NCBI GenBank assembly: GCA_902796035.1
Contig: CADBNR010000047.1
Coordinates: 1 to 51,223, forward strand
Direction: 5' to 3'
DNA: 51,223 nt
Origin: an uncultured Bacteroidales bacterium
Lineage (GTDB): Bacteria; Bacteroidota; Bacteroidia; Bacteroidales; Muribaculaceae
A program made the position numbers and the translations under genes. Every line of letters starts with the position of its first letter. The first letter of the stretch is position 1. Shown here one piece after another: positions 31,291-43,818 of this stretch. The notes under the pieces were generated by a model, which was not told the DNA's origin, did no database searches, and saw nothing but the letters and a program-made list of their open reading frames with translations.

Positions 31291-32382
31291 TTACTTCGGC
31301 TTGGACTCGCAGTAGAGGCAGCGGTAGCTGCCGGGGTTGGCGAGGTCGGGACGGAAGCAGGCGTCTACGTTCTCAACGTTGCTGATGCACTTGGGGTTGG
31401 AGCAGACGTGCCGGTTGCGGACCACATCGTCGGGCACCAGCTTGGGTGCATTCTCCGCGTCCTTTAGCTGTGCCCATTCCAGAAGCTTGAGGATGAGGGC
31501 CATGCGGACGTATTTGCCGTTCCTGACCTGACGGAAGTAAGCGGCGCGCGGGTCGGTGTCGACATCGACCGAAATCTCGTTGACGCGGGGCAGCGGATGC
31601 AGGATGCGCATCTCGGGCTTGGCGTCGCGGAGTTTGTCGGGCGTGAGGATGAAGCAGTCCTTGACACGGTCGTATTCGTCCTGATCCAGGAAACGCTCCT
31701 TCTGCACGCGGGTCATGTACAGCACGTCAAGCTCGGGCATCACCTCCTCCATCGAGTTGACCTCGACGTAGGGGATGCCGTACTTGTCGCACACTTCTTC
31801 CTTCATGTATGCCGGGAGGCGGAGCTGGTCGGGAGCGATGAGCACCACCTTGATGCCCTTGTAGCGCGACAGGGCCTTGATGAGGGAATGGACGGTGCGG
31901 CCGAAACGGAGGTCGCCGCAGAAACCGATGGTGAGATTGTCGAAGCGTCCTATCTCGCGGCGGATGGTCAGCAGGTCGGTCAGGGTCTGCGTGGGGTGCG
32001 CGTGCGAGCCGTCGCCGGCGTTGATGACCGGAGTGGAGGAATTGATGGCAGCCACAAGGGGGGCGCCTTCCACGGGGTGACGCATGGCGATGATGTCGGC
32101 GAAGCAGTTGATGACGCGTGTGGTGTCGGCCACGGTCTCGCCCTTGCTTACGGAGGTGTTGTTGGCGTTGCTGAAACCGATGACGTTGCCACCCAGTTCC
32201 ATCATGGCCGAGGTGAACGACAGGCGCGTGCGCGTCGAAGGTTCGTAGAACAGAGTGGCCAGCTTCTTGCCCTTGCAGGCTTCGGCATACTTGGCCGGAT
32301 TGTCGATGATGTCAAGCGCAAGGTCGATGACTTCCTGCAGCTCGTCGGTCGACAGGTCGGTAGGTTCTATTACGTGACGCAT
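31291..32382 (-). CDS. pyrB: Aspartate carbamoyltransferase with fused PyrI-type zinc ribbon
   Basis: 363 residues from ATG 32382 (4 nt after pyrE). Residues 1-305 are the catalytic chain: [11 protein letters not shown] (STRTR at 49-53, carbamoyl-phosphate), [10 protein letters not shown] (128-137) and HPLPRVNE (262-269). After a linker of about 15 residues comes [10 protein letters not shown] ... RCLYCESK: Cys327, Cys332, Cys355 and Cys358 reproduce the C-x4-C-x22-C-x2-C zinc site of PyrI. The PyrI N-terminal allosteric nucleotide domain is absent, and no separate pyrI follows. It catalyses the first committed UMP step; loss of CTP/ATP control is inferred. The longer frame to 32589 is rejected because it overlaps pyrE. 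Confidence 0.95.
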
Positions 32383-32386
32383 GATA

Positions 32387-33013
32387 TCAGTCTTTAAGCC
32401 ATTCGGCGGGGTTGGCGATGAACTTGTGCAGCATAGGCACCTGGTCGGGCTGGATATAGCCTTCTTCGGCGGCCACGTGCACCAAGGTGCTGAAGTTGGA
32501 GAGGGAATGGTTCGTGACGTTGGCCTGAGCCAGACGGTCGATACCCTTCTGCATTCCGTAGGTGAAGATGGATACCACACCGAGCACATCGGCGCCGGCC
32601 TCGCGGAGCGCCTCGACAGTCTCTACGCAGCTGCCGGCCGTGGAGATAAGATCTTCTACAACAACCACCTTCATGCCCGGGTCAAGACGGCCCTCGATGC
32701 GGTTGTTGCGGCCGTGGTCCTTGGCGGCGCCGCGCACATAGCCCATGGGGAGGTCGAGGAGATAAGCCGCGATGGCGGCGTGGGCGATACCGGCTGTAGA
32801 AGTGCCCATCAGCGCCTGAGCCTCAGGATAATACTTGCGGACTGTGTCGGCTATGCCCTGCTCGATGACGCGACGCACCTCCGGATAGCCCAAGGTGAGG
32901 CGGTTGTCGCAATATACGGGCGACTTGATGCCTGACGCCCAGGTGAAGGGATCGTCGGGACGCAGGAACACAGCCTTGATGGAGAGGAGTGCTTTTGCTA
33001 CTTGTTTTTCCAT
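32387..33013 (-). CDS. pyrE: Orotate phosphoribosyltransferase
   Basis: 208 residues from ATG 33013. It joins orotate and PRPP to give OMP. The PRPP-binding loop is [20 protein letters not shown]; the N-terminal substrate part is [16 protein letters not shown]; and the mobile basic loop [17 protein letters not shown] carries the catalytic Lys. The size is normal. It is followed after 4 nt by pyrB and preceded by a 61-nt gap after pyrF, the largest gap in the operon. Confidence 0.96.
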
Positions 33014-33074: not shown

Positions 33075-33785
33075 TCAGATACCGGCGAACTCCTTGCGGG
33101 CCTTGAGGTAAGCGGCCACGGGGTCGGGAGCGGCAGTGATGGGGCGACCCACGACGATGAAATCAGAGCCTATCTCACGGGCGCGTTCGGGGGTGGTGAC
33201 ACGCGACTGGTCGTCGGCACCGGCGTTGGGGTAGCGGATGCCGGGAGTAACGGCCAGGAACTCGGGACCGCAGGCCTCCTTGACAATCGATGCCTCCAGG
33301 GGCGAGCATACCACGCCGTCCAGACCGGCTGCCTTGGCGTTCTGCGCGTATTTGGCGATGGTCTCGTTCATGGGGGTGTCGATCAGCAGCTGGTTCTTCA
33401 GCGCTTCGGGCGACGTGGATGTGAGCTGAGTGACGGCGATGAGCAGAGGACGCTTGCGGCCCTCGGGCGTACCTTCCTCCAGGCCCTGCAGACCGGCCGC
33501 CATCATTTCGATGGTGCCCCCGGCGTGCACGTTGATCATGTCTATGTCCATGCCGGCCAGTACCTTCATCGACTTCCGGACCGTGTTGGGAATGTCGTGC
33601 AGCTTGAGGTCGAGGAAGATGCGGTGTCCGCGTTCGCGCAGACGGCGCACTATGTCGGGTCCGGCTCCGTAGTAAAGCTCCATGCCTATCTTGACGAAGG
33701 GGCGCAGGTCGCCGAACTGTTCCAGGAATTTCAGAGTGGTGTCAGCGTCGGGAAAATCGCACGCTATGATAACGTCTTTGTTCAT
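33075..33785 (-). CDS. pyrF: Orotidine 5'-phosphate decarboxylase
   Basis: 236 residues, type 1 family size. It decarboxylates OMP to UMP. The catalytic charged network is IFLDLKLHDIPNTV (Asp-x-Lys-x-x-Asp). Other family motifs are IIACDFPDADTTL at the N-terminus, LIAVTQLTS, VTPGIRY and IVVGRPITAA (phosphate-binding). ATG 33785 is 16 nt after the pyrD stop; an extended frame to 33920 lies within pyrD and is rejected. Confidence 0.96.
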   Translation of the reverse strand: MNKDVIIACDFPDADTTLKFLEQFGDLRPFVKIGMELYYGAGPDIVRRLRERGHRIFLDLKLHDIPNTVRKSMKVLAGMDIDMINVHAGGTIEMMAAGLQGLEEGTPEGRKRPLLIAVTQLTSTSPEALKNQLLIDTPMNETIAKYAQNAKAAGLDGVVCSPLEASIVKEACGPEFLAVTPGIRYPNAGADDQSRVTTPERAREIGSDFIVVGRPITAAPDPVAAYLKARKEFAGI

Positions 33786-33801: not shown

Positions 33802-34716
33802 TCAGATTGGTTTGATGGAAGATAGAGAGTCGATGCCGTAGCGTTCCATTGCGGCGGGGAGTTCACGCACAATGTTGTAGCAGGCCATGGGGTCGAGCAG
33901 GTTTGCGGTGCCGACCTCAACGGCCTTGGCGCCGGCCAGCATCATCTCCAGTATGTCGTCGGCCGACATGACGCCGCCGCAACCGATGACGGGGATGTTG
34001 ACCGCACGCGACACCTGATAGACCATGCGTAGAGCCATCGGGAACACAGCCGGACCGGAGAAACCGCCCATCACGTTTGCCACGACGGGGCGTTTGGTCT
34101 TGAGGTCGATGCGCATACCCAGGAACGTGTTGGCGCAAACCAGACCGTCGGCACCGGCATCCTCGGCGGCGCGGGCCATCTCGACTATGTCGGTCACGTT
34201 GGGGCTGAGCTTGACGAACAGCGGCGTCCGTGTGCATTTTTTGACCGCCGAAGTTACCTTGGCGATGTTTTCGGCCGAGGTTCCGAACGCCATGCCGCCG
34301 CCGTGCACATTGGGACAGCTCACGTTCAGCTCCAGGATGTCTACCTGTGGCTGACCGTCCATGCGGCGGCAGGTCTCGCAGTATTCATCTACCGAGAAGC
34401 CGCTGATATTGGCGATAATCGGGCCGTTATATACGTCGCGCAACTTGGGCAGCTCGTCGCTGATCACCTTGTCGACGCCCGGATTCATCAGTCCCACGGA
34501 ATTGATCATGCCCGACGGGCATTCGGCCACGCGTGGCAGCGGGTTGCCGAAGCGAGCGTCGAGGGTGGTGCCCTTTACCGATATGGCGCCCAGGGTGTTA
34601 AGGTCGTAATAAGGAGCCATGACGTAGCCGAAGCCGAAGCAGCCGCTGGCTGGGATGACGGGGTTTTTGAGAGTGAGGGAGCCGAGGCTCACCTGCAGGT
34701 CGCGGTTCATTCCCAT
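33802..34716 (-). CDS. pyrD: Dihydroorotate dehydrogenase, class 1B catalytic subunit
   Basis: 304 residues. An FMN TIM barrel with VIPASGCFGFG at the N-terminus, the class 1 active-site Cys in ELNVSCPNVHGGG, VKLSPNVTD, and the FMN phosphate motif IPVIGCGGVMSADD. With PyrK it forms the NAD-dependent heterotetramer that oxidises dihydroorotate in the cytosol. The start ATG 34716 is favoured by AGGAGG 7 nt upstream; ATG 34710 would make an ATGA overlap with pyrK but is spaced poorly from that site. Confidence 0.96.
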   Translation of the reverse strand: MGMNRDLQVSLGSLTLKNPVIPASGCFGFGYVMAPYYDLNTLGAISVKGTTLDARFGNPLPRVAECPSGMINSVGLMNPGVDKVISDELPKLRDVYNGPIIANISGFSVDEYCETCRRMDGQPQVDILELNVSCPNVHGGGMAFGTSAENIAKVTSAVKKCTRTPLFVKLSPNVTDIVEMARAAEDAGADGLVCANTFLGMRIDLKTKRPVVANVMGGFSGPAVFPMALRMVYQVSRAVNIPVIGCGGVMSADDILEMMLAGAKAVEVGTANLLDPMACYNIVRELPAAMERYGIDSLSSIKPI

Positions 34717-35438
34717 ATCAGTTCCTCCTTTCTGAATACGGGGCCTTTCTTGCATACGCCGGCGGGGCCGTTGGTGGTTTTTATGGCGCAGCAGGCGCAG
34801 ACTCCGAATCCGCAGGCCATGCGTGTCTCGAGGCTTAGCTGGCCGGAGATAGGCATGGTGTCGCACAGGGCGCGTAGCATCGGGCTTGGACCGCATGCGT
34901 AGAAATAGTCGGCGTCAAGACCGGCCTCCTTGTAAGCGTCTGTCACGAAACCCTTTGTGCCAAGCGAACCGTCGACAGTGGCCATATACACCGGCAGTCC
35001 CAGGTCTACGAACAGGTCATGCAGCACTGCGCGTTCCTTGGAGGCGAAACCAAGCACTACGGCAGGTCGGATACCCTTGTCCATCAGAGCCTTGGCGAGA
35101 CCGTAGAGAGGTGCTGTGCCGATACCTCCCCCCAACAGCACGGGACGCTCCGTCGGAACGGAGATGTCGAAACCGTTGCCGAGAGGGCAGAGTATGTCGA
35201 GTTCCTGCGGGGGCAGCATCTTCGACATTTTCTCGGTGCCTTCGCCCACCACATCGTATGCGAGCAGGATGGTGCTGTCGTCCCAGTCGCAGATGGAGAT
35301 GGGACGGCGCAGGAAGCAGCCGTCAACGGCTACGTTGACAAACTGGCCGGGCCTGGTGATGCCGGACGTGTCGCCGCGCAGGCGCATCAGCCATGTGGCG
35401 CCCGTGAGGTGGCGGTTCTCAATTATCGTGTATTTCAT
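34707..35438 (-). CDS. pyrK: Dihydroorotate dehydrogenase electron-transfer subunit
   Basis: 243 residues. The FAD domain has FLRRPISICDWD (Arg-Pro-Ile-Ser flavin motif); the NAD domain has LLGGGIGTAPLYGLA and ACGPSPMLRAL. The C-terminal [2Fe-2S] site is CGFGVCACCAIKT...GVC, four Cys. It passes electrons from PyrD FMN to NAD. It overlaps pyrD by 10 nt and pyrC by ATGA, so all three are translationally coupled. Confidence 0.96.
   Translation of the reverse strand: MKYTIIENRHLTGATWLMRLRGDTSGITRPGQFVNVAVDGCFLRRPISICDWDDSTILLAYDVVGEGTEKMSKMLPPQELDILCPLGNGFDISVPTERPVLLGGGIGTAPLYGLAKALMDKGIRPAVVLGFASKERAVLHDLFVDLGLPVYMATVDGSLGTKGFVTDAYKEAGLDADYFYACGPSPMLRALCDTMPISGQLSLETRMACGFGVCACCAIKTTNGPAGVCKKGPVFRKEELIWE
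34724..34729 (-). promoter_or_regulatory. Shine-Dalgarno site of pyrD
   Basis: The minus strand reads AGGAGG, 7 nt before ATG 34716 and inside the end of pyrK. Strong Shine-Dalgarno sites are rare in Bacteroidota, and this one decides the pyrD start. Confidence 0.7.
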
Positions 35439-36718
35439 GACTCTGTACTTTCTGAGTAATAATCGTTATTAATAAAAACGCTCCGGCCGTTGAAAAAGGT
35501 TGCCATGACCTTGCCGTAAAGTTCAAGACCTGCGAAAGGTGTGGCGTGACCCATCGACACGAGCCTGTCGGGGTCAACCGTGAACGGATTGCTGAAGTCT
35601 ACTAATGTGAAATCGGCACGCTGGCCCGGCTCCAGGCCGCCCTTGATGCCGAAAATGTGGCGCGGATTCACGGCCATCAGCTCAATCATCCTGCTGAATG
35701 AGATCAGCCCCGTACGCACGGCGTAAGTGTAGACGGCGGGAAGCGACAGCTCGATTCCTGTGACACCCATAGCCGATTTGAGCAGACCTTTGGACTTCTC
35801 CTCGGCCGAGTGGGGGGCATGGTCGGAAGCGATGCAGTCGATGGTGCCGTCCTGAATGCCTCGGATCAGTTCGTCGCGGTCGTCGGCCGCACGGAGCGGA
35901 GGATTCATTTTGAAACGCCCCTCGTCCTGCAGGTCGGCGTCGGTGAAGACTAAATAATGGGCGCCGGTCTCGGCAGTGACGTCAACGCCACGTGCCTTGG
36001 CGTCGCGTATCAGGCGCACGCTCTCCTTGGTGGAGACGTGGCAGATGTGCAGACGGCAGCCGGTTTCCTCGGCCAGACGTATGTTGCGCTCCACTTCGTG
36101 CCATTCGCTTTCGGAGCAGATGCCGGGCAGACCATGTTCGCGGGCATAGTCGCCGTCGTGGATGCAGCCGCCGCGCACCAGTTCCATCACCTCGCAATGC
36201 TCGGCCAGAACCTTGCCCGTGCGGGCTATCCCTTTCATCGACTCGCGCATCACGTCCTCGGACTCTATGCCCGAGCCGTCGTCGCTGAACGCGCACACGT
36301 ATGGCGCAAGCTCCGCATAGTCCACCGGTTCCTTGCCAATGCGGCCGCGTGTGATGGTGGCGTACGGCAATACCTCGATTTCGGCGCCACGGTCTATGGC
36401 GTCGAGCTGCCGGCGCAGATTGGGCATGGAGTCGGGAGCCGGCTTGAGGTTGGGCATTGTGCAGACGGTGGTGAACCCGCCCGCAGCCGCAGCCTTAGAG
36501 CCGGTGGCGACGGTCTCCTTGTACTCGAAGCCGGGCTCGCGGAAGTGTACGTGCACGTCGACCAGACCGGGGATGGCGGTGAGTCCGCGTCCGTCAAATT
36601 CAAGACCGGCCCACGGGCCGACATGACCTATCTCGCGGATCACGCCGTCCTCCACCATGATGGAGACCGGCTCGCCGTTAGGGTCGCACAGGCGTACGTT
36701 TCTGATCAGAGTCTTCAT
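35435..36718 (-). CDS. pyrC: Dihydroorotase
   Basis: 427 residues from ATG 36718. A type I amidohydrolase that closes carbamoyl-aspartate to dihydroorotate. Metal ligands: DVHVHFREPGFEYKE (His-x-His), later HICHVSTKES, and CIASDHAPHS (catalytic Asp). The C-terminal strand-rich part KGGLEPGQRADFTLVD is typical of the family. It overlaps pyrK by 4 nt and follows carB by 10 nt. Confidence 0.96.
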   Translation of the reverse strand: MKTLIRNVRLCDPNGEPVSIMVEDGVIREIGHVGPWAGLEFDGRGLTAIPGLVDVHVHFREPGFEYKETVATGSKAAAAGGFTTVCTMPNLKPAPDSMPNLRRQLDAIDRGAEIEVLPYATITRGRIGKEPVDYAELAPYVCAFSDDGSGIESEDVMRESMKGIARTGKVLAEHCEVMELVRGGCIHDGDYAREHGLPGICSESEWHEVERNIRLAEETGCRLHICHVSTKESVRLIRDAKARGVDVTAETGAHYLVFTDADLQDEGRFKMNPPLRAADDRDELIRGIQDGTIDCIASDHAPHSAEEKSKGLLKSAMGVTGIELSLPAVYTYAVRTGLISFSRMIELMAVNPRHIFGIKGGLEPGQRADFTLVDFSNPFTVDPDRLVSMGHATPFAGLELYGKVMATFFNGRSVFINNDYYSESTES

Positions 36719-36728
36719 AACCGCTGTG

Positions 36729-39700
36729 TTAGAATTCCTGCCAGGACTTGATTTCAATTTCCTCCGGCTTTACGGTGAGGAAAGCGTAGATGAACGCCGA
36801 AGCGAGTCGGGCGTTGGTTATCAGCGGGATATTGAGGTCGATTGCCGTGCGGCGCACCTTGTAGCCGTTCGTTACCTGCGAGTCGGAATGGTTTGCCGGG
36901 AGATTGATCACCAGGTCTATCTCATGGTTGTGCAGCAGGTCGAGGGCCTGGGGCTGGCCGAGCGAATCGGGCCAGAACACCATGGTGTTGGGAATGCCGT
37001 TCTCCGACAGGTGACGCGATGTGCCCGGCGTCGCGTAGAGGTTGTAGCCGTTTTTGGCCAGCATCTGCGCGGCCTTGAGCATGTCGCCCTTCTGCTTGCC
37101 GTTGCCGGTGGAGAGGAGGATGTTCTTGCCCGGGATGCGGAGTCCGACAGACAGCATGGAGGTCAGCAGAGCCTTGCGGGCGTCGTCGCCGATGCAGCCT
37201 ACCTCGCCGGTGGACACCATGTCGACGCCAAGCTTCGGGTCGGCCTTCTGCAAACGGTTGAACGAGAACTGCGACGCCTTGACACCAACATAATCCAGGT
37301 CGAACACGCTCTTGTCGGGACGCTCCACGGGGAGGCCGAGCATGATGCGTGTGGCCAGCTCGATAAGGTTGATTTTCAGGACCTTGCTTACGAAGGGGAA
37401 CGAGCGCGAGGCGCGCAGGTTGCACTCTATGACCTTGATGTCGTTCTCGCGGGCCAGGAACTGGATGTTGAACGGGCCGGAGATATTGAGCTGTTCGGCT
37501 ATCTTCTTGGAAATCTTCTTGATGCGACGTGCAGTCTCCACATACAGCTTCTGCGGCGGGAACTGGATGGTGGCGTCGCCGGAATGGACGCCGGCATATT
37601 CCACATGCTCGGAGATGGCGTAAGCGATAATCTCGCCGTTGCAGGCCACAGCATCCATTTCCACCTCCTTGGCGTTTTCAAGGAACTGGGAGACAACGAC
37701 CGGATGACGCTTGGAGACATTAGCCGCTTCGGTGAGGAAGCGTTCAAGCTGGTCGGGGCCAGTGCAGACATTCATGGCCGCGCCCGAGAGGACGTAGCTG
37801 GGACGCACCAGGACGGGGAAACCAACCTTCTCCACAAACTTGTTGATATCCTCCATCGACGTGAGGGCCGACCATTCGGGCTGGTCGACGCCGATGCGGC
37901 CCAGCATTGCCGAGAATTTCTCGCGGTCCTCGGCGTTGTCGATGCTTTGTGCCGAGGTGCCGAGCAGGTTGATGCCCACGTGGTCGAGACGCATTGCCAG
38001 GTTGTTGGGAATCTGGCCGCCGGTGCTTACCACCACTCCGTGAGGCGTCTCCAGGTCGAGGATGTCAAGCACGCGCTCGAAGGTAAGCTCGTCGAAATAG
38101 AGGCGGTCGCATATATCATAGTCGGTCGATACGGTTTCGGGGTTGTAATTGATCATTACGGAACGCCAGCCCTCCTTGCGGATGGTGTTGAGCGCCTGGA
38201 CGCCGCACCAGTCGAACTCAACGGACGAACCGATGCGATAGGCACCCGAACCGAGTACCACGACCGACTTGCCGTCGTTCTCATAGTCGATGTCGTGTGC
38301 GTCGCCGTTATAGGTGAGGTACAGATAGTTGGTCTGAGCCGGGAATTCGCCGGCCAGGGTGTCGATCTGCTTCACGGCCGGAACCACGCCCAGCTCCTTG
38401 CGGCGGTCGCGCACCATCAGGATAGCCTGCTCGATGTCGCAGTCCTTCTCCATTCCGACGGCGCGGGCAATCTGGAAGTCTGAGAAACCCTGGCGCTTGG
38501 CGCGCAGCATCAGGTCGCGGTCTATAGCGTCCAGACCCTTGAGCGAGTGCAGCCGGCGGTCGGTGTCGTGTATGTTCTTCAGCTTGTGCAGGAACCACTT
38601 GTCAATGCGGGTCAGCTCGTGGATGCGGTCGATGGAATATCCGCGGTCGAAAGCCTTTTCAATCACGAAGATACGCTTGTCTGTCGGAGCCTTGAGGGCC
38701 GTATCGACATCATCAAGCACCAGTTCCTTGTTGTCGACAAAACCATGCATTCCCTGGCCTATCATACGGAGGCCCTTCTGAATGGCCTCCTCGAAAGTGC
38801 GTCCGATGGCCATTACCTCGCCGACAGACTTCATGGACGATTCCAGCTCGCGGTTTACGCGGCGGAACTTGCCGAGGTCCCAGCGTGGAATCTTGCAGAC
38901 CACGTAGTCAAGGGCGGGTTCGAAGAACGCCGTGGTGTCCTTGGTCACCGAGTTGCGTATGTCGAACAGACCGTAGCCGAGGGCCAGCTTGGCGGCCACG
39001 AATGCGAGGGGATAGCCGGTGGCCTTGGAAGCCAGGGCCGACGAGCGCGACAGACGCGCGTTGACCTCGATGACGCGGTAATCCTCGGAATCGGGGCAGA
39101 GGGCGAACTGCACGTTGCACTCGCCCACGATGCCTATGTGGCGAGCGATGCGGATGGAAAGCTCGCGCAGCTTATGGTATTCGGAATTGGAGAGGGTCTG
39201 CGAGGGAGCCACCACGATGCTCTCGCCGGTGTGGATGCCAAGGGGGTCGAAGTTCTCCATGTTGCAGACCGTGATGCAGTTGTCGAAACGGTCGCGCACC
39301 ACCTCGTACTCGATTTCCTTCCAGCCTTTCAGACTCTTTTCCACCAGCACCTGCGGCGAGAACGAGAAGGCTTTCTCAGCTAACTTGATCAGCTCACCCG
39401 GAGTGTCGCAGAATCCGGAACCGAGACCGCCCAATGCGTATGCCGCGCGCAGGATGACGGGATAACCGAGCTTGGATGCGGCTTCAAGAGCCTGTTCGGT
39501 GTTCTCGCAAGCCTCCGATGCGATGGTCTTGACGTTGATTTCCGAAAGTTTCTCCACGAATATCTCGCGGTCCTCGGTGTCGATGATGGACTGCACGGGC
39601 GTGCCGAGCACCCGGACGCCGTATTTTTCGAACACGCCGCTATGGTACAGCTCGACGCCGCAATTCAGGGCCGTCTGGCCGCCGAATGCCAGCATGATGC

Positions 39701-39965
39701 CGTCGGGGCGCTCCTTGGCTATGACGCGCTCCACGAAGAAGGGGGTGACGGGCAGGAAATAGATGTGGTCGGCCACACCCTCGCTGGTCTGCACCGTGGC
39801 GATGTTGGGGTTGATCAGCACGGTCTCGATTCCCTCCTCGCGCAGGGCCTTCAGGGCCTGGCTGCCGGAATAGTCAAACTCGCCGGCCTCGCCTATCTTC
39901 AGCGCGCCCGAACCTAAGACCAGTACTTTCTTGATATCTTTCACTATGGAATTATCTTGAGACAT
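36729..39965 (-). CDS. carB: Carbamoyl-phosphate synthase, large subunit
   Basis: 1078 residues, normal length. Two ATP-grasp halves are visible: the first with VLVLGSGALKIGEAGEFDYS (16-35), VEKSLKGWKEIEYEVVRD and EVNARLSRSSALASKATGYP; the second with VVLGSGAYRIGSSVEFDWCG, EVEMDAVACNG and ECNLRASRSFPFVSKVL. The C-terminal MGS-like regulatory domain runs from about residue 940 (KNILLSTGNGKQKGDMLKAA). It makes carbamoyl phosphate from ammonia delivered by CarA. It follows carA by 20 nt. Confidence 0.97.
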   Translation of the reverse strand: MSQDNSIVKDIKKVLVLGSGALKIGEAGEFDYSGSQALKALREEGIETVLINPNIATVQTSEGVADHIYFLPVTPFFVERVIAKERPDGIMLAFGGQTALNCGVELYHSGVFEKYGVRVLGTPVQSIIDTEDREIFVEKLSEINVKTIASEACENTEQALEAASKLGYPVILRAAYALGGLGSGFCDTPGELIKLAEKAFSFSPQVLVEKSLKGWKEIEYEVVRDRFDNCITVCNMENFDPLGIHTGESIVVAPSQTLSNSEYHKLRELSIRIARHIGIVGECNVQFALCPDSEDYRVIEVNARLSRSSALASKATGYPLAFVAAKLALGYGLFDIRNSVTKDTTAFFEPALDYVVCKIPRWDLGKFRRVNRELESSMKSVGEVMAIGRTFEEAIQKGLRMIGQGMHGFVDNKELVLDDVDTALKAPTDKRIFVIEKAFDRGYSIDRIHELTRIDKWFLHKLKNIHDTDRRLHSLKGLDAIDRDLMLRAKRQGFSDFQIARAVGMEKDCDIEQAILMVRDRRKELGVVPAVKQIDTLAGEFPAQTNYLYLTYNGDAHDIDYENDGKSVVVLGSGAYRIGSSVEFDWCGVQALNTIRKEGWRSVMINYNPETVSTDYDICDRLYFDELTFERVLDILDLETPHGVVVSTGGQIPNNLAMRLDHVGINLLGTSAQSIDNAEDREKFSAMLGRIGVDQPEWSALTSMEDINKFVEKVGFPVLVRPSYVLSGAAMNVCTGPDQLERFLTEAANVSKRHPVVVSQFLENAKEVEMDAVACNGEIIAYAISEHVEYAGVHSGDATIQFPPQKLYVETARRIKKISKKIAEQLNISGPFNIQFLARENDIKVIECNLRASRSFPFVSKVLKINLIELATRIMLGLPVERPDKSVFDLDYVGVKASQFSFNRLQKADPKLGVDMVSTGEVGCIGDDARKALLTSMLSVGLRIPGKNILLSTGNGKQKGDMLKAAQMLAKNGYNLYATPGTSRHLSENGIPNTMVFWPDSLGQPQALDLLHNHEIDLVINLPANHSDSQVTNGYKVRRTAIDLNIPLITNARLASAFIYAFLTVKPEEIEIKSWQEF

Positions 39966-39985: not shown

Positions 39986-41074
39986 TTAGAGGGATTTGAC
40001 TTGGTCGATGAACTCATCGAAAAGGAACTCCGTGTCGACCGGACCGCCGCAGGCCTCGGGATGGAACTGCACCGAACGCCATGGCCTGGACGTGTGGCGG
40101 ATGCCCTCGTTCGATCCGTCGTTCATGTTGGTGAACCAGGGCGCCCAGTCGGCGGGGAGCGTGTCGGCGTCGACGGCATATCCGTGGTTCTGGCTTGTGA
40201 CGAAGCAACGCACGTCGCCTTCCAGACGTGCCGGCTGGTTGTGGCTGCGGTGGCCGTATTTCAGCTTGTAGATGTCGGCACCGGCGGCTTTGCCTAAGAG
40301 CTGATGACCGAGGCAGATGCCCATCAGCGGGCGTTTCTCGTCGGGGTTGGATATGAATTTACGGATGTTGTTCACCGTGACGGCGCAGGTCTCGGGATTG
40401 CCGGGGCCGTTGCTGAGGAACAGCGCGTCGAAATCCAGAGTGTTGAAATCGTAGTCCCAGGGCACACGGATCACCTCGACGCCACGGTTGGCCAGACAGC
40501 GGACAATGTTGTTCTTGGCACCGCAGTCCACGAGCACCACACGCTTCAGGCCCTTGCCTTCGTTATAGACCTGCACGTCCTTGGGGCTGACGCGCTCCAC
40601 GAAATTGATGTCGCCGTAATCCTCGAAAGCCGGTTCCGGAGTGTCCTCCACCAATATCTTGCCGCGGATCACGCCCTGTTCGCGCAGGTGCTTGGTCAGC
40701 GAGCGTGTGTCGATACCGGTAATGGCGGGCACACCCTGCGAGGCGAGCCACTGAGACAGACTGCGTGCCGCGTTCCAGTGCGAGTACTCGTCGCTGTAAT
40801 CGCACACCACCATGCCGGCGGCGTGGATGCGCTCCGATTCCAGGAAGCGTGCCATTCCGTCGTCGGCTCTGTCGTCGGCCGGTACGCCGTAATTGCCCAC
40901 AAGAGGATATGTCAGTGTCATAATCTGACCGGCATACGAAGGGTCGGTGAGACTCTCGGGATATCCGGTCATGGCGGTGTTGAACACCACCTCGCCCGAA
41001 ACGCTGGCGTCCGCGCCGAAGGAATACCCCTCGTAGCGGGTGCCGTCTTCAAGTATCAGTGTGGCTCTTTTCAT
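39986..41074 (-). CDS. carA: Carbamoyl-phosphate synthase, small (glutaminase) subunit
   Basis: 362 residues. N-terminal CPSase small-chain domain (EDGTRYEGYSFG, FNTAMTGYPESLTDPSYAGQ), then a class I glutamine amidotransferase domain with the nucleophile in MGICLGHQLLG (Cys), SNGPGNPE, and the C-terminal His/Glu in VQFHPEACGGP. It supplies ammonia to CarB. It is 4 nt after purF and 20 nt before carB. Confidence 0.97.
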   Translation of the reverse strand: MKRATLILEDGTRYEGYSFGADASVSGEVVFNTAMTGYPESLTDPSYAGQIMTLTYPLVGNYGVPADDRADDGMARFLESERIHAAGMVVCDYSDEYSHWNAARSLSQWLASQGVPAITGIDTRSLTKHLREQGVIRGKILVEDTPEPAFEDYGDINFVERVSPKDVQVYNEGKGLKRVVLVDCGAKNNIVRCLANRGVEVIRVPWDYDFNTLDFDALFLSNGPGNPETCAVTVNNIRKFISNPDEKRPLMGICLGHQLLGKAAGADIYKLKYGHRSHNQPARLEGDVRCFVTSQNHGYAVDADTLPADWAPWFTNMNDGSNEGIRHTSRPWRSVQFHPEACGGPVDTEFLFDEFIDQVKSL

Positions 41075-41078
41075 GAAG

Positions 41079-43028
41079 TTATGTTGTTGTGTCAGGCCCT
41101 GGGCCTGTCGTTTTTAGTTTTAAATAGATATTGTCCATGTAGGAGATGAACGCCTCGTTGATGCGGCGTACGCCTCCGGGAGTGGGATAGCGGCCCGAGA
41201 AGTACCAGTCGCCGGGATGTCCCGGGATGGCGTCGTGCAGTCCGTCGAGGGTCTGGAACACGATGCGTATGTCGGTCGTGACGCCCTCGGGGCGCAGCAT
41301 CTCGACCATCTTGTCGGCTATCTCGGTGTCCGAGAACAGGTCGTACAGCTCGGTGACGTAGTTTGCCATCTGCTCCTTGGGGAGTGATTGCTGCGCCTTG
41401 CACTTGGCGTAAATGTCGGTCAGCACGTGTTCAAGGCCACGGTCGCGTGCCAGCTCCACGGCGGCGCGGAATCCGATGAATTCCTCCATGCGCGCCATGT
41501 CGATGCCGTAATAGTCGGGGTATTTCACGATGGGGCTGGAGCTTACTATCACTATGCGCTTTGGATGCAGGCGGTCGAGGATGCGTATGATGGATTCGCG
41601 CAGCGTGGTGCCGCGCACTATGGAGTCGTCGATGATGACGAGATTGTCGGTGTAGGGGCGTAGCGAACCGTAAGTGATGTCGTAGACGTGGGCGGCCAGG
41701 TCGTTGCGGCTGGCACCTTCGGAGATGAACGTGCGCAGCTTGATGTCCTTGATGGCCACCTTTTCGGATCGGATGCGGCGCGACAGAATTTTCTCGATGT
41801 CGGCATTGTCGGATTCGTGCCCGAGGCTGCGGATGGCCTCGGCCTTCTCGCGGTTCAGAAACTCGTTGAAACCCTGCACCATTCCGTAGAAGGCCACCTC
41901 GGCAGTGTTGGGGATATAGGAGAACACCGTGTTGTCGACGTCATGGTCCACGGCGTCGAGAATCTGGGGCACCAGGTTGATGCCTAATTTCTTGCGTTCG
42001 TTGTAGATGTCGGCGTCGGAGCCACGCGAGAAGTAGACTCGCTCGAACGAGCATGCGGCGTAGTTGCGCGGCGGGATTATCTGCGGAGTCTCAAGGCGGC
42101 CGTCGGCGTGGAGCACGATGGCCTGGCCGGGCTTCAGCTCGCGGATCTGTTCGGCACTGACATTGAATGTGGTCTGCAGCACGGGGCGTTCGGAGGCCAG
42201 GGAGAACACCTCGGAATCCATGAAATAGAACGCGGGGCGTATTCCCCAGGGGTCGCGCAGGGCGAAAGCCTCGCCGGAGCCGGTGACGCCGCACACCACG
42301 TAGCCGCCGTCCCAGACGGTGCAGCTGGTGCGCAGCACGTTGCTCATGTCGATGTTGTCTTCGATGAAACGAGTGATGTCGCAGTCGGTAAGTCCCTGTT
42401 CCATGGCCATCTTGAACAGGCGTTCGGATTCGCGGTCCAGACGGTGGCCTAACTGTTCCAGCAGCAGGAACGTGTCGGAGATCATGCGCGGGTGCTGCCC
42501 CTTGACGGCAATTTCGCCGAAAATCTCGTCCACGTTGGTCATGTTGAAGTTGGCGCAGATGCACAGGTTCTTGGCGCGCCAGTTGTTGCGCCGCAGGAAA
42601 GGATGGACAAAAGAAATGCCGCTTTTCCCCGTGGTGGAATATCGGAGATGACCCATGTAGAGTTCACCTGCGAAGGGGAATGAGCGGCTTGCGAGATCGG
42701 CGATGTCGGATGAGGCATCGAGGTCGTCGGGCGACAGACCGTTAGCGGCGGCTTCCTGAGCCAATGCCTGATTGGCGGCGGCGAAAATGTCCTTGATGGC
42801 ATCCACGCCCATGGCGCGTTCCCTGAACATGAATTCCTGACCCGGCTCCGCGTTGAGTTTGACGCAAGCCAAACCGGCTCCCTCCTGGCCTCGGTTGTGC
42901 TGTTTCTCCATCAGCAGATAGAGCTTGTTCAGACCGTATCGCCAGGTTCCGTATTTCTGCCGGTAGTGTTCCAGCGGCTTGAGCAGTCTCACCATTGCTA
43001 CGCCGCATTCATGTTTAAGTTGTTCCAT
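41079..43028 (-). CDS. purF: Amidophosphoribosyltransferase (purine synthesis, first step)
   Basis: 649 residues from ATG 43028. The N-terminal nucleophile glutaminase begins MEQLKHECGVAMVRL: Cys8 would become residue 1 after removal of a 7-residue leader. RGQEGAGLACVKL and the type I PRTase loop LVIIDDSIVRGTTLRESI are clear. It is longer than the usual 470-510 residues, as in other Bacteroidales forms that carry insertions (for example PLEHYRQKYGTWRYGLNKLY near the N-terminus). It makes phosphoribosylamine from PRPP and glutamine, and here opens a pyrimidine operon. A longer TTG-started frame to 43127 is rejected because it crosses the terminator hairpin. Confidence 0.94.
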   Translation of the reverse strand: MEQLKHECGVAMVRLLKPLEHYRQKYGTWRYGLNKLYLLMEKQHNRGQEGAGLACVKLNAEPGQEFMFRERAMGVDAIKDIFAAANQALAQEAAANGLSPDDLDASSDIADLASRSFPFAGELYMGHLRYSTTGKSGISFVHPFLRRNNWRAKNLCICANFNMTNVDEIFGEIAVKGQHPRMISDTFLLLEQLGHRLDRESERLFKMAMEQGLTDCDITRFIEDNIDMSNVLRTSCTVWDGGYVVCGVTGSGEAFALRDPWGIRPAFYFMDSEVFSLASERPVLQTTFNVSAEQIRELKPGQAIVLHADGRLETPQIIPPRNYAACSFERVYFSRGSDADIYNERKKLGINLVPQILDAVDHDVDNTVFSYIPNTAEVAFYGMVQGFNEFLNREKAEAIRSLGHESDNADIEKILSRRIRSEKVAIKDIKLRTFISEGASRNDLAAHVYDITYGSLRPYTDNLVIIDDSIVRGTTLRESIIRILDRLHPKRIVIVSSSPIVKYPDYYGIDMARMEEFIGFRAAVELARDRGLEHVLTDIYAKCKAQQSLPKEQMANYVTELYDLFSDTEIADKMVEMLRPEGVTTDIRIVFQTLDGLHDAIPGHPGDWYFSGRYPTPGGVRRINEAFISYMDNIYLKLKTTGPGPDTTT

Positions 43029-43044
43029 GCTGTGATTCGCTTTG

Positions 43045-43052
43045 CAAAGATA
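43045..43052 (-). promoter_or_regulatory. -7 box of the purF-pyr operon
   Basis: The minus strand reads TATCTTTG, matching TAnnTTTG, 16 nt before ATG 43028. The -33 region would fall in the loop of the preceding terminator and lacks TTG, so the match is partial. The very short leader leaves little room for an attenuator. Confidence 0.45.
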
Positions 43053-43060
43053 ATAAAAAA

Positions 43061-43085
43061 ATGGCACTCCATAAAGAAGTGCCAT
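43061..43085 (-). terminator. Terminator of the Wza/Wzc/CpsB module
   Basis: ATGGCACT (43061-43068) pairs with AGTGCCAT (43078-43085) around a 9-nt loop, followed on the minus strand by a U-run (TTTTTTATTATC). It begins 5 nt past the cpsB-like stop. Confidence 0.82.
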
Positions 43086-43089
43086 AAAA

Positions 43090-43818
43090 TTAACTAAGTA
43101 TCTTCGGATTGCGGGCAATCTCGACAAGGGAATCGAGGGCCTGCTGGTTCTTGGGCTTGTGGTCGAGGAAGTGGAGCAGCACCCTGTAATGGTGCAGGTC
43201 GGATCCGGTGATGTCGATCATGCCTTCCTTCAGTAGCCATTCGGCCTTGGCCCGTGCGGTTTCGCCATACATGCCCACAAGGGACATGAAATTGGTCTGG
43301 AACACTACGCCCCGGTCTTTCCACGTCAGATAATCGTTCTCGTCCATATATCTGTATCGTTCCGGGTGAGCCAGAATGGGAGTGAGTCCCGTGGAGATGA
43401 TGTTCTGCATCATCTGCTCCATGCCGAAGGGGGGATTTACATAGGATGTCTCGACAAGAAGATATTTGCCGTCGGGACCGATTGTGAGCAGGTCGTTGGC
43501 CTGAAAGCGCTCCTCGAACAGAGAGTCGAGCATGTTTTCGGCCGCCAGCTGAAGCTGTATCGGGCCTTGGTATTCGGCCTGCAGTTCCGCGAAACGGTCG
43601 CGCAGGCCCTGAGTGGTGTTGCGGCATTCCTCCATGATGTGTGGGGTGAGCCATACGGACTTTACGCCCAGTTCTTCATATTTCTTCAGAGCAGCGAGCG
43701 AATCCTCCATCTTCTGGAATCCGTCGTCCACGCCAGGCAGTATGTGCGAGTGCCAGTCGGTCAGGCCCTTGAACAGACCGCTCTGTTCAAGACTGTTTTT
43801 CTTAGTGAATGGCCACAT
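43090..43818 (-). CDS. CpsB/CapC-family tyrosine-protein phosphatase (PHP fold)
   Basis: 242 residues. PHP-type metal motifs: DWHSHILPGVDDG (21-33), VKSVWLTPHIMEE, PILAHPERYRYMDEND and the C-terminal ITGSDLHHYR. These are the signatures of CpsB/YwqE phosphatases, which dephosphorylate the tyrosine cluster of BY-kinases and so cycle capsule export. It is translated 2 nt after the Wzc-like kinase gene, the expected partner. Cytosolic. Confidence 0.9.
   Translation of the reverse strand: MWPFTKKNSLEQSGLFKGLTDWHSHILPGVDDGFQKMEDSLAALKKYEELGVKSVWLTPHIMEECRNTTQGLRDRFAELQAEYQGPIQLQLAAENMLDSLFEERFQANDLLTIGPDGKYLLVETSYVNPPFGMEQMMQNIISTGLTPILAHPERYRYMDENDYLTWKDRGVVFQTNFMSLVGMYGETARAKAEWLLKEGMIDITGSDLHHYRVLLHFLDHKPKNQQALDSLVEIARNPKILS

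Follow-up and report, generated by a model that had tools for sequence, protein, structure and literature searches.

The window analysed here, a 51,223-nucleotide stretch of DNA from an uncultured Bacteroidales bacterium of the Muribaculaceae, carries a pyrB gene in which a complete catalytic chain of aspartate carbamoyltransferase (ATCase) is followed, in one open reading frame, by the zinc ribbon of the regulatory chain PyrI without the nucleotide-binding domain that normally precedes it. We consider it probable that the product is a non-allosteric catalytic trimer bearing its own ribbons, that this form originated by deletion, and that a clostridial-type PyrB of this kind has replaced the native pyrB-pyrI pair. 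ATCase serves as the textbook case of allostery, and the zinc domain is commonly regarded as the joint through which nucleotide binding is signalled to the catalytic part. Evolution has here parted the two more than once, with the signal domain lost and the joint kept and selected, which offers a direct test of the joint's own role.

The fused gene and its product

The gene lies on the reverse strand and is divided as follows (genomes, loci and contigs are referred to below by our own G, L and C numbers).

31291..32382, minus strand: pyrB fused to a PyrI zinc ribbon; 363 aa, ATG at 32382, stop at 31291-31293
31477..32382, minus strand: catalytic PyrB part, residues 1-302 (TIGR00670)
31405..31476, minus strand: linker, residues 303-326, first residue Trp303
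31294..31404, minus strand: zinc ribbon, residues 327-363 (PF02748)
31402-31404, 31387-31389, 31318-31320 and 31309-31311, minus strand: codons of the ribbon cysteines

The frame runs without interruption from the ATG to the stop codon. Pfam analysis of the 363-aa product placed OTCace_N at residues 2-141, OTCace at 149-298 and PyrI_C at 323-361, while the NCBIfam model for the aspartate carbamoyltransferase catalytic chain, TIGR00670, matched residues 2-301 with 341.7 bits (curated score 236.95). The PyrI metal-binding domain PF02748 was matched with 36.1 bits, above its threshold of 23.4, and with all four cysteine ligands (C327, C332, C355 and C358); the same PyrI_C match had an E-value of 7.1e-10 in the search of the whole genome. 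These domains and cysteines bear out the preliminary description of a complete PyrB followed by the four-cysteine ribbon of PyrI. That description had also called the spacing exactly that of PyrI, which holds for Bacteroidales PyrI, where C-x4-C-x22-C-x2-C does occur (for example in L045), but not for E. coli PyrI, where the central gap is x23; among the fused proteins the span from first to last cysteine ranges from 29 to 37 residues.

A search of the PDB with the last 54 residues (E up to 10) returned 12 sequences, all 12 of them ATCase chains whose name or letter marks them as regulatory, the best being 2yww (E 2.4e-6). When the whole protein was used as the query, catalytic chains came top, with 2be7 chain A first. 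Residues S52, R54, S80, K84, R105, H134, Q137, R167, R229 and Q231 (E. coli numbering), which we take to be the active-site residues of E. coli PyrB, were present in all 162 rows compared, and C327, C332, E337, C355, Y357 and C358 were invariant in 62 sequences. The product of 31291..32382 was the sole PyrB match in the window's genome and is the cell's aspartate carbamoyltransferase. Across the whole window, Rfam at gathering scores gave only a tRNA and no known pyrimidine RNA switch.

Search for the regulatory chain

The window's genome comprises 2.2 Mb in 76 contigs and is 92% complete. Profile searching of this assembly revealed one PyrI_C match, the fused one, and no free PyrI_C elsewhere. 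The N-terminal, nucleotide-binding domain of PyrI (PF01948) gave no match at E <= 10 when the same genome was searched in all six frames; run on 14 control genomes, the PF01948 search detected the domain in seven, among them E. coli and Bacteroides ihuae. The nucleotide-binding domain was thus rightly reported as missing, and the earlier remark that no pyrI lies in the operon can be extended to the whole genome, in agreement with those relatives whose genomes were searched whole. A separate intact pyrI elsewhere in the genome, or a frameshift concealing a full PyrI, had been named as the observations that would overturn the description; both tests came out negative, PF01948 being absent in every frame. 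On the PyrI_C and PF01948 searches of this 92% complete assembly, we reject both a free PyrI and a concealed one.

Relation to known ATCase systems

An excerpt of PMC4581275 distinguishes three bacterial ATCase types, namely enzymes with dihydroorotase, enzymes with separate or fused regulatory dimers, and bare trimers that are insensitive to effectors. Judged by sequence, the window's form fits none of the three exactly, and in behaviour it may come closest to the bare trimer. It shares with the E. coli-type class B enzyme the catalytic chain family and the zinc domain, in which Asn111, Ile115, Tyr140 and Glu/Asp142 are mostly or fully kept, but it is a single chain without the nucleotide domain, its genome holds no PF01948 match as class B would require, and no dodecamer is expected. 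The fused PyrBI of Thermotoga maritima (Chen et al. 1998, as cited in the same excerpt of PMC4581275) likewise joins catalytic with regulatory sequence in a single polypeptide; however, NF009916 (PRK13376), a model of 525 positions that represents catalytic and regulatory subunits together and would attach both PyrI domains to PyrB, matched the window's protein over residues 42-301 only, with 118.4 bits against 800. The Bacillus subtilis class C enzyme resembles the expected product in being a trimer with neither nucleotide domain nor allosteric control, but consists of the catalytic trimer only, whereas here a conserved zinc domain (PyrI_C) is fused to it.

The natural fused protein also looks like a complex made in the laboratory, carried on one chain. 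Markby, Zhou and Schachman (1991) reportedly combined the E. coli trimer with an isolated zinc peptide of PyrI and found that the peptide bound and that activity was changed. In both cases only catalytic chain and zinc domain are present, but the peptide acted in trans whereas the window's ribbon is joined in cis. No description of a PyrB carrying only the ribbon was found in the openly licensed literature, although older or closed work may contain one, and among the NCBIfam matches of the window's protein there was no model for this architecture.

Distribution of the fused form

Within the window's genus, PyrI_C was found in 88 of 101 genomes and the PyrI N-domain in nine. The ribbon was joined to PyrB in 78 genomes and a complete free PyrI was present in nine, the two forms never occurring together (0/101). 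Among the 79 genomes with PyrI_C alone, 77 had ribbon and PyrB in one open frame of 356-454 aa; in G151 the fusion is truncated on the N-terminal side, and in G165 a ribbon fragment of 44 aa is located where a contig ends. Of the 13 genomes without PyrI_C, 11 gave no PyrB match and in two the PyrB is truncated by the end of a contig, so that the ribbon, fused or in a free PyrI, is present in this sample wherever the C-terminus of PyrB is readable. In G155 two fused pyrB copies with identical scores were observed on contigs C25 and C54, possibly reflecting a duplicated contig.

Across a family sample of 149 genomes, PyrI_C was found in 137, the N-domain in 130 and neither in 12, and the seven genomes with PyrI_C but without the N-domain all belonged to the window's genus. 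Genomes with neither domain were G022, G040, G060, G097, G109, G111 and G135, plus five more; the seven named here are 96-99% complete, so a bare catalytic trimer is possible in some of them. Sampling 295 genomes across the order gave 269 matches, and frames were inspected for a selection of 42 genomes, the majority with low scores. G352 and G451, which belong to a different family, carried the fusion without the N-domain, and the G451 protein was 98% and 97% identical to the Tidjanibacter-labelled L135 and L136. A CarB match was absent in the Tidjanibacter-like G451 and G352 (L128, L129, L263), which are 99% complete and have the fused pyrB in pyrimidine gene order. A full PyrB-PyrI fusion of 465 aa with both regulatory domains was found in G455 (L123, 259-1656), also from another Bacteroidales family; it resembles the Thermotoga type in domain order. 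Many of the sampled genomes are draft assemblies or incomplete MAGs.

Species genomes were scanned by likeness to a ribbon-bearing query, and the best 80 of 585 candidates were kept. Among these 80, 77 had PyrB plus ribbon, with no N-domain in the flanking sequence retrieved (up to 3 kb), a proportion that is neither a census nor a frequency because the ranking favoured ribbon-bearing proteins. The other three (L209, L211 and L213, all clostridial) had PyrB and a separate full PyrI. The labels of the fused members of this best 80 of 585 were mostly Bacteroidales (Tidjanibacter, Alistipes, Rikenellaceae, Muribaculaceae, Paludibacteraceae and other Bacteroidales), with a few Clostridia labelled Clostridiales. 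Whole-genome searching of 40 of the 80 located the N-domain in all three genomes with free PyrI and in none of the 37 with the fusion. The fused architecture is common among gut Bacteroidales.

Sixty of 148 sampled clostridial genomes had PyrI_C, and four of these, G588, G674, G651 and G713, carried the fusion. In another, G603, PyrI_C lies in a 56-aa frame, and in L226 (G716) it has a 68-aa frame of its own next to an unfused PyrB, with the N-domain not found at this locus; the latter small frame may be a frameshifted PyrI or a free ribbon.

Origins of the fusion

A quick tree of 168 catalytic domains, from which the ribbon was excluded, needed eight changes between fused and other states, six of them forced, against a shuffled mean of 52. 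A more careful tree of 72 chosen PyrB rows was built with a mixture model, L215 being omitted for its long branch; it needed six changes, five of which were forced by well-supported branches, and one origin was recovered in 0% of 200 bootstrap trees. Approximately unbiased (AU) tests, for groups named after the first tree had been inspected, rejected a single clade of the three native-type fusions of the window's genus (p 0.00013) and a single clade of Bacteroidales and clostridial fusions (p 0.028), while one event for the six clostridial fusions was acceptable (p 0.359). Tree and AU tests reject a single origin of all fusions. The fused form thus appears to have arisen in at least four lineages, of which the fourth rests on the p-value of 0.028, and this count is drawn from a PyrB tree that is blind to transfer of the ribbon alone. 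One further sequence, L238, sits on a long branch and its placement is unsure. The window's clade is nested in clostridial PyrB, its nearest free-PyrI relatives being L211, L213 and L248 (support 95/90), the first two of which are labelled Lachnospiraceae.

One native-type fusion retains close unfused kin. The PyrB of L051 (G126) is 93% identical to that of its free-PyrI genus-mate L043, and the two group with L046 at 100/98 support in the careful tree. The L051 ribbon is likewise nearest to the PyrI of L043 and L046 (70% and 65% identity; others listed <= 57%), and a shared pyrB motif and the ribbon's end lie 270 nt apart in L051, against 556 nt in L043 and 575 nt in L046. The simplest reading is an in-frame deletion, in place, of the pyrB stop codon, the spacer and the nucleotide domain. 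The same kind of deletion between adjacent pyrB and pyrI genes would explain how the form arises elsewhere. As near-sister genes, one with a free PyrI and the other with the ribbon alone, L043 and L051 also lend themselves to direct comparison. The ribbon of L055 gave near-equal scores, outside L055 and L056, with fused Bacteroidales ribbons (54% and 47%) and with the free PyrI of L043 (53%), which makes ribbon transfer possible, and L055/L056 may have acquired their ribbon in this way.

Proposed working of the enzyme

In E. coli the regulatory dimer that ties two catalytic trimers together is made by the nucleotide-binding domain. Since this is the missing domain, neither a dodecamer nor control by CTP, UTP or ATP is expected. 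With the compared active-site positions intact and the nucleotide domain gone, we expect the usual catalytic trimer, with one ribbon per subunit. Each ribbon would dock on PyrB roughly as the zinc domain of E. coli PyrI does. Lacking the nucleotide domain, the chains would form no regulatory dimer, two trimers would remain untied, and there would be no site for CTP, UTP or ATP. The predicted role of the ribbon is to stabilise the trimer and to keep it R-like, with high affinity.

The loss of CTP feedback at the ATCase step is, on this sequence evidence, a sound inference. The preliminary description had left it open whether feedback was lost or moved; the plant-type UMP loop, one way in which it could have moved, is absent from the fused proteins. 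CTP feedback at this step should not be assumed in many gut Bacteroidales. The pattern suggests a benefit in retaining the zinc end even where feedback control has been abandoned. If this is true, the zinc domain, not the whole regulatory chain, is the part that the catalytic chain hardly dispenses with, and the textbook CTP feedback has been given up repeatedly in the gut. The balance tips only slightly towards treating ribboned, non-allosteric trimers as a separate and so far undescribed ATCase class, reached at least four times by deletion of the nucleotide domain from a pyrB-pyrI pair and widespread in gut Bacteroidales within a common pyrimidine gene order.

Ribbon conservation and alternative readings

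The fused ribbon differs from that of free PyrI at a set of surface positions. Large hydrophobic residues occupy PyrI positions 99, 106 and 127 in 60/62, 60/62 and 62/62 free sequences and in only 7/100, 2/100 and 13/100 fused ones; these three were picked from a table that shows other shifts too, and position 99 sits in the variable linker. We presume that all three face the nucleotide domain, with Val106 and its neighbours packing against it. The hydrophobic residues at 115, 125 and 140 were kept in fused ribbons (100/100, 92/100 and 100/100). Lesser shifts in hydrophobicity were seen in fused ribbons, downwards at 97, 128, 134 and 150 and upwards at 98, 102 and 139. Ribbon Asn111 was kept in 98/100 and its PyrB partner Glu109 in 94/100, a pair described in an excerpt of PMC6056424 as bonded in the R state. 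Among the seven clostridial fused proteins Glu109 was kept in three, and PyrB positions 113 and 117 vary.

Such an altered surface could mean that the ribbon has taken on a new job, either making new contacts in a larger complex or regulating the enzyme through zinc or redox sensing by its four cysteines. In keeping with this, the ribbon is present in every genus genome with a readable PyrB C-terminus, and a tryptophan at the start of the linker was retained in 116 of the 123 distinct proteins of the large Bacteroidales fused clade. This residue was absent from the 83 free-PyrI loci, of 86, with a readable motif, but it does not mark fusions in general, being found in one of seven clostridial and none of the three native-type fusions, so that Trp303 was rejected as a signature of all fusions. 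A short tail after the last cysteine was also rejected as a fusion mark, the clostridial free PyrI being equally short there. The conserved ribbon residues N111, I115, E119, Y140 and E/D142 are, however, also conserved in ordinary PyrI, and we regard a new job as unlikely. The neighbouring genes considered were the pyrimidine, car and purF genes, and a partner encoded elsewhere in the neighbourhood may exist.

Feedback might also have been kept by other means, through an unrelated nucleotide-binding partner acting in trans or through a plant-like site within the trimer. Losing feedback at this step was judged unusual for a lineage that once had a class B enzyme, and a plant enzyme offers a precedent: according to an excerpt of PMC7878868, this single-gene trimer without a regulatory chain retains UMP control, for which F161 of its CP loop is needed. 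In the fused proteins, which unlike the plant enzyme also carry a ribbon, the position corresponding to Arabidopsis F161 was located through a motif rather than through alignment with a plant sequence. In the 131 of 133 proteins where it could be read, it is occupied by S, N, T, A or R, and F does not occur. Plant-type UMP regulation is thus unsupported, the CP-loop Phe being absent. Moreover, the PyrI N-domain was missing from the window's genome and from the 37 fused named genomes, and the hydrophobic positions presumed to face it have changed. We find feedback retained in either way quite improbable.

A third reading takes the ribbon for a decaying, functionless remnant, as its profile scores below those of free PyrI and the loosely constrained linker might suggest. 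Pooled pN/pS was 0.063 for the catalytic part, 0.30 for the linker and 0.13 for the ribbon over 32 of 227 candidate pairs, each protein being used once; these values are rough as synonymous sites are near saturation. The ribbon value nonetheless stands against decay, as do the four cysteines, kept in every one of the 131 proteins that could be read among 133 distinct fused ones (the residue tables exclude L110, with an unread base, and L178, which ends at a contig end), and the presence of the ribbon, fused or free, in every genus genome where the PyrB C-terminus could be read. No frameshifted or lost ribbons were seen in the fused clades, in searches that mostly favoured ribbon-bearing proteins. 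We consider a functionless remnant very unlikely. These data indicate that the ribbon is under purifying selection, and a structural role for it fits its conservation.

Lastly, the fragmented, 92% complete assembly might have concealed a normal PyrI behind an artefact or frameshift, but this has a negligible probability and is refuted by relatives with the same form (78/101 genus genomes and 77/80 named loci among the best 80 of 585), the PyrI N-domain being found in no frame.

Gene order and probable entry into the Bacteroidales

The genes upstream of the fused pyrB, named from sequence, are the following.

32387..33013, minus strand: pyrE, just upstream of pyrB
33075..33785, minus strand: pyrF
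33802..34716, minus strand: pyrD
34707..35438, minus strand: pyrK
35435..36718, minus strand: pyrC
36729..39965, minus strand: carB
39986..41074, minus strand: carA

Together they can be read as an operon, carA-carB-pyrC-pyrK-pyrD-pyrF-pyrE-pyrB, with the fused pyrB last. The order pyrCKDFE-B was common to most of the fused Bacteroidales loci examined, and pyrE and pyrF adjoin the fused pyrB in the main-clade fused genomes examined. PyrE was encoded directly upstream on the same strand in 67/74 Bacteroidales fused, 5/7 clostridial fused and 8/34 clostridial free loci, many of the last having short flanks. The order pyrK-D-F-E-B was also found in the clostridial fused L204, L208 and L214 and in the free L209, whereas pyrE was not found in the fetched 3 kb of the nearest free relatives, L211 and L213; this, with the 8/34 clostridial free loci, argues that the gene order was not simply inherited together with clostridial PyrB. 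We infer that a PyrB of clostridial type, in the order pyrCKDFE-B, entered the Bacteroidales and replaced the native pyrB-pyrI pair.

Comparison of CarB leaves it undecided whether the whole operon, carAB included, may have been transferred. Among six fused genus-mates, the window's CarB is 100% identical to that of G204, 74-78% to those of G214, G206, G030 and G100 and 63% to that of G237. Identity to free-PyrI genus-mates is 72-73% in six of nine, with 70% over a part in G208 and no full CarB match found in G210 and G212; the three native-type fusions also show 72-73%. CarB of G495, from another family, is 80% identical, above all genus-mates compared except G204, so that simple vertical descent of CarB is not evident. 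In four regions of some 20 kb spanning carAB (L250-L253), from free-PyrI or native-fusion genomes, only CarA and CarB of the nine proteins searched were matched, and the same two were the only matches in the 14-kb L262.

Directly upstream of carA in the window, at 41079-43127, lies a gene for a PurF-like amidophosphoribosyltransferase, also named from sequence, and a PurF match likewise precedes carA in four other regions (L255, L257, L258 and L259).
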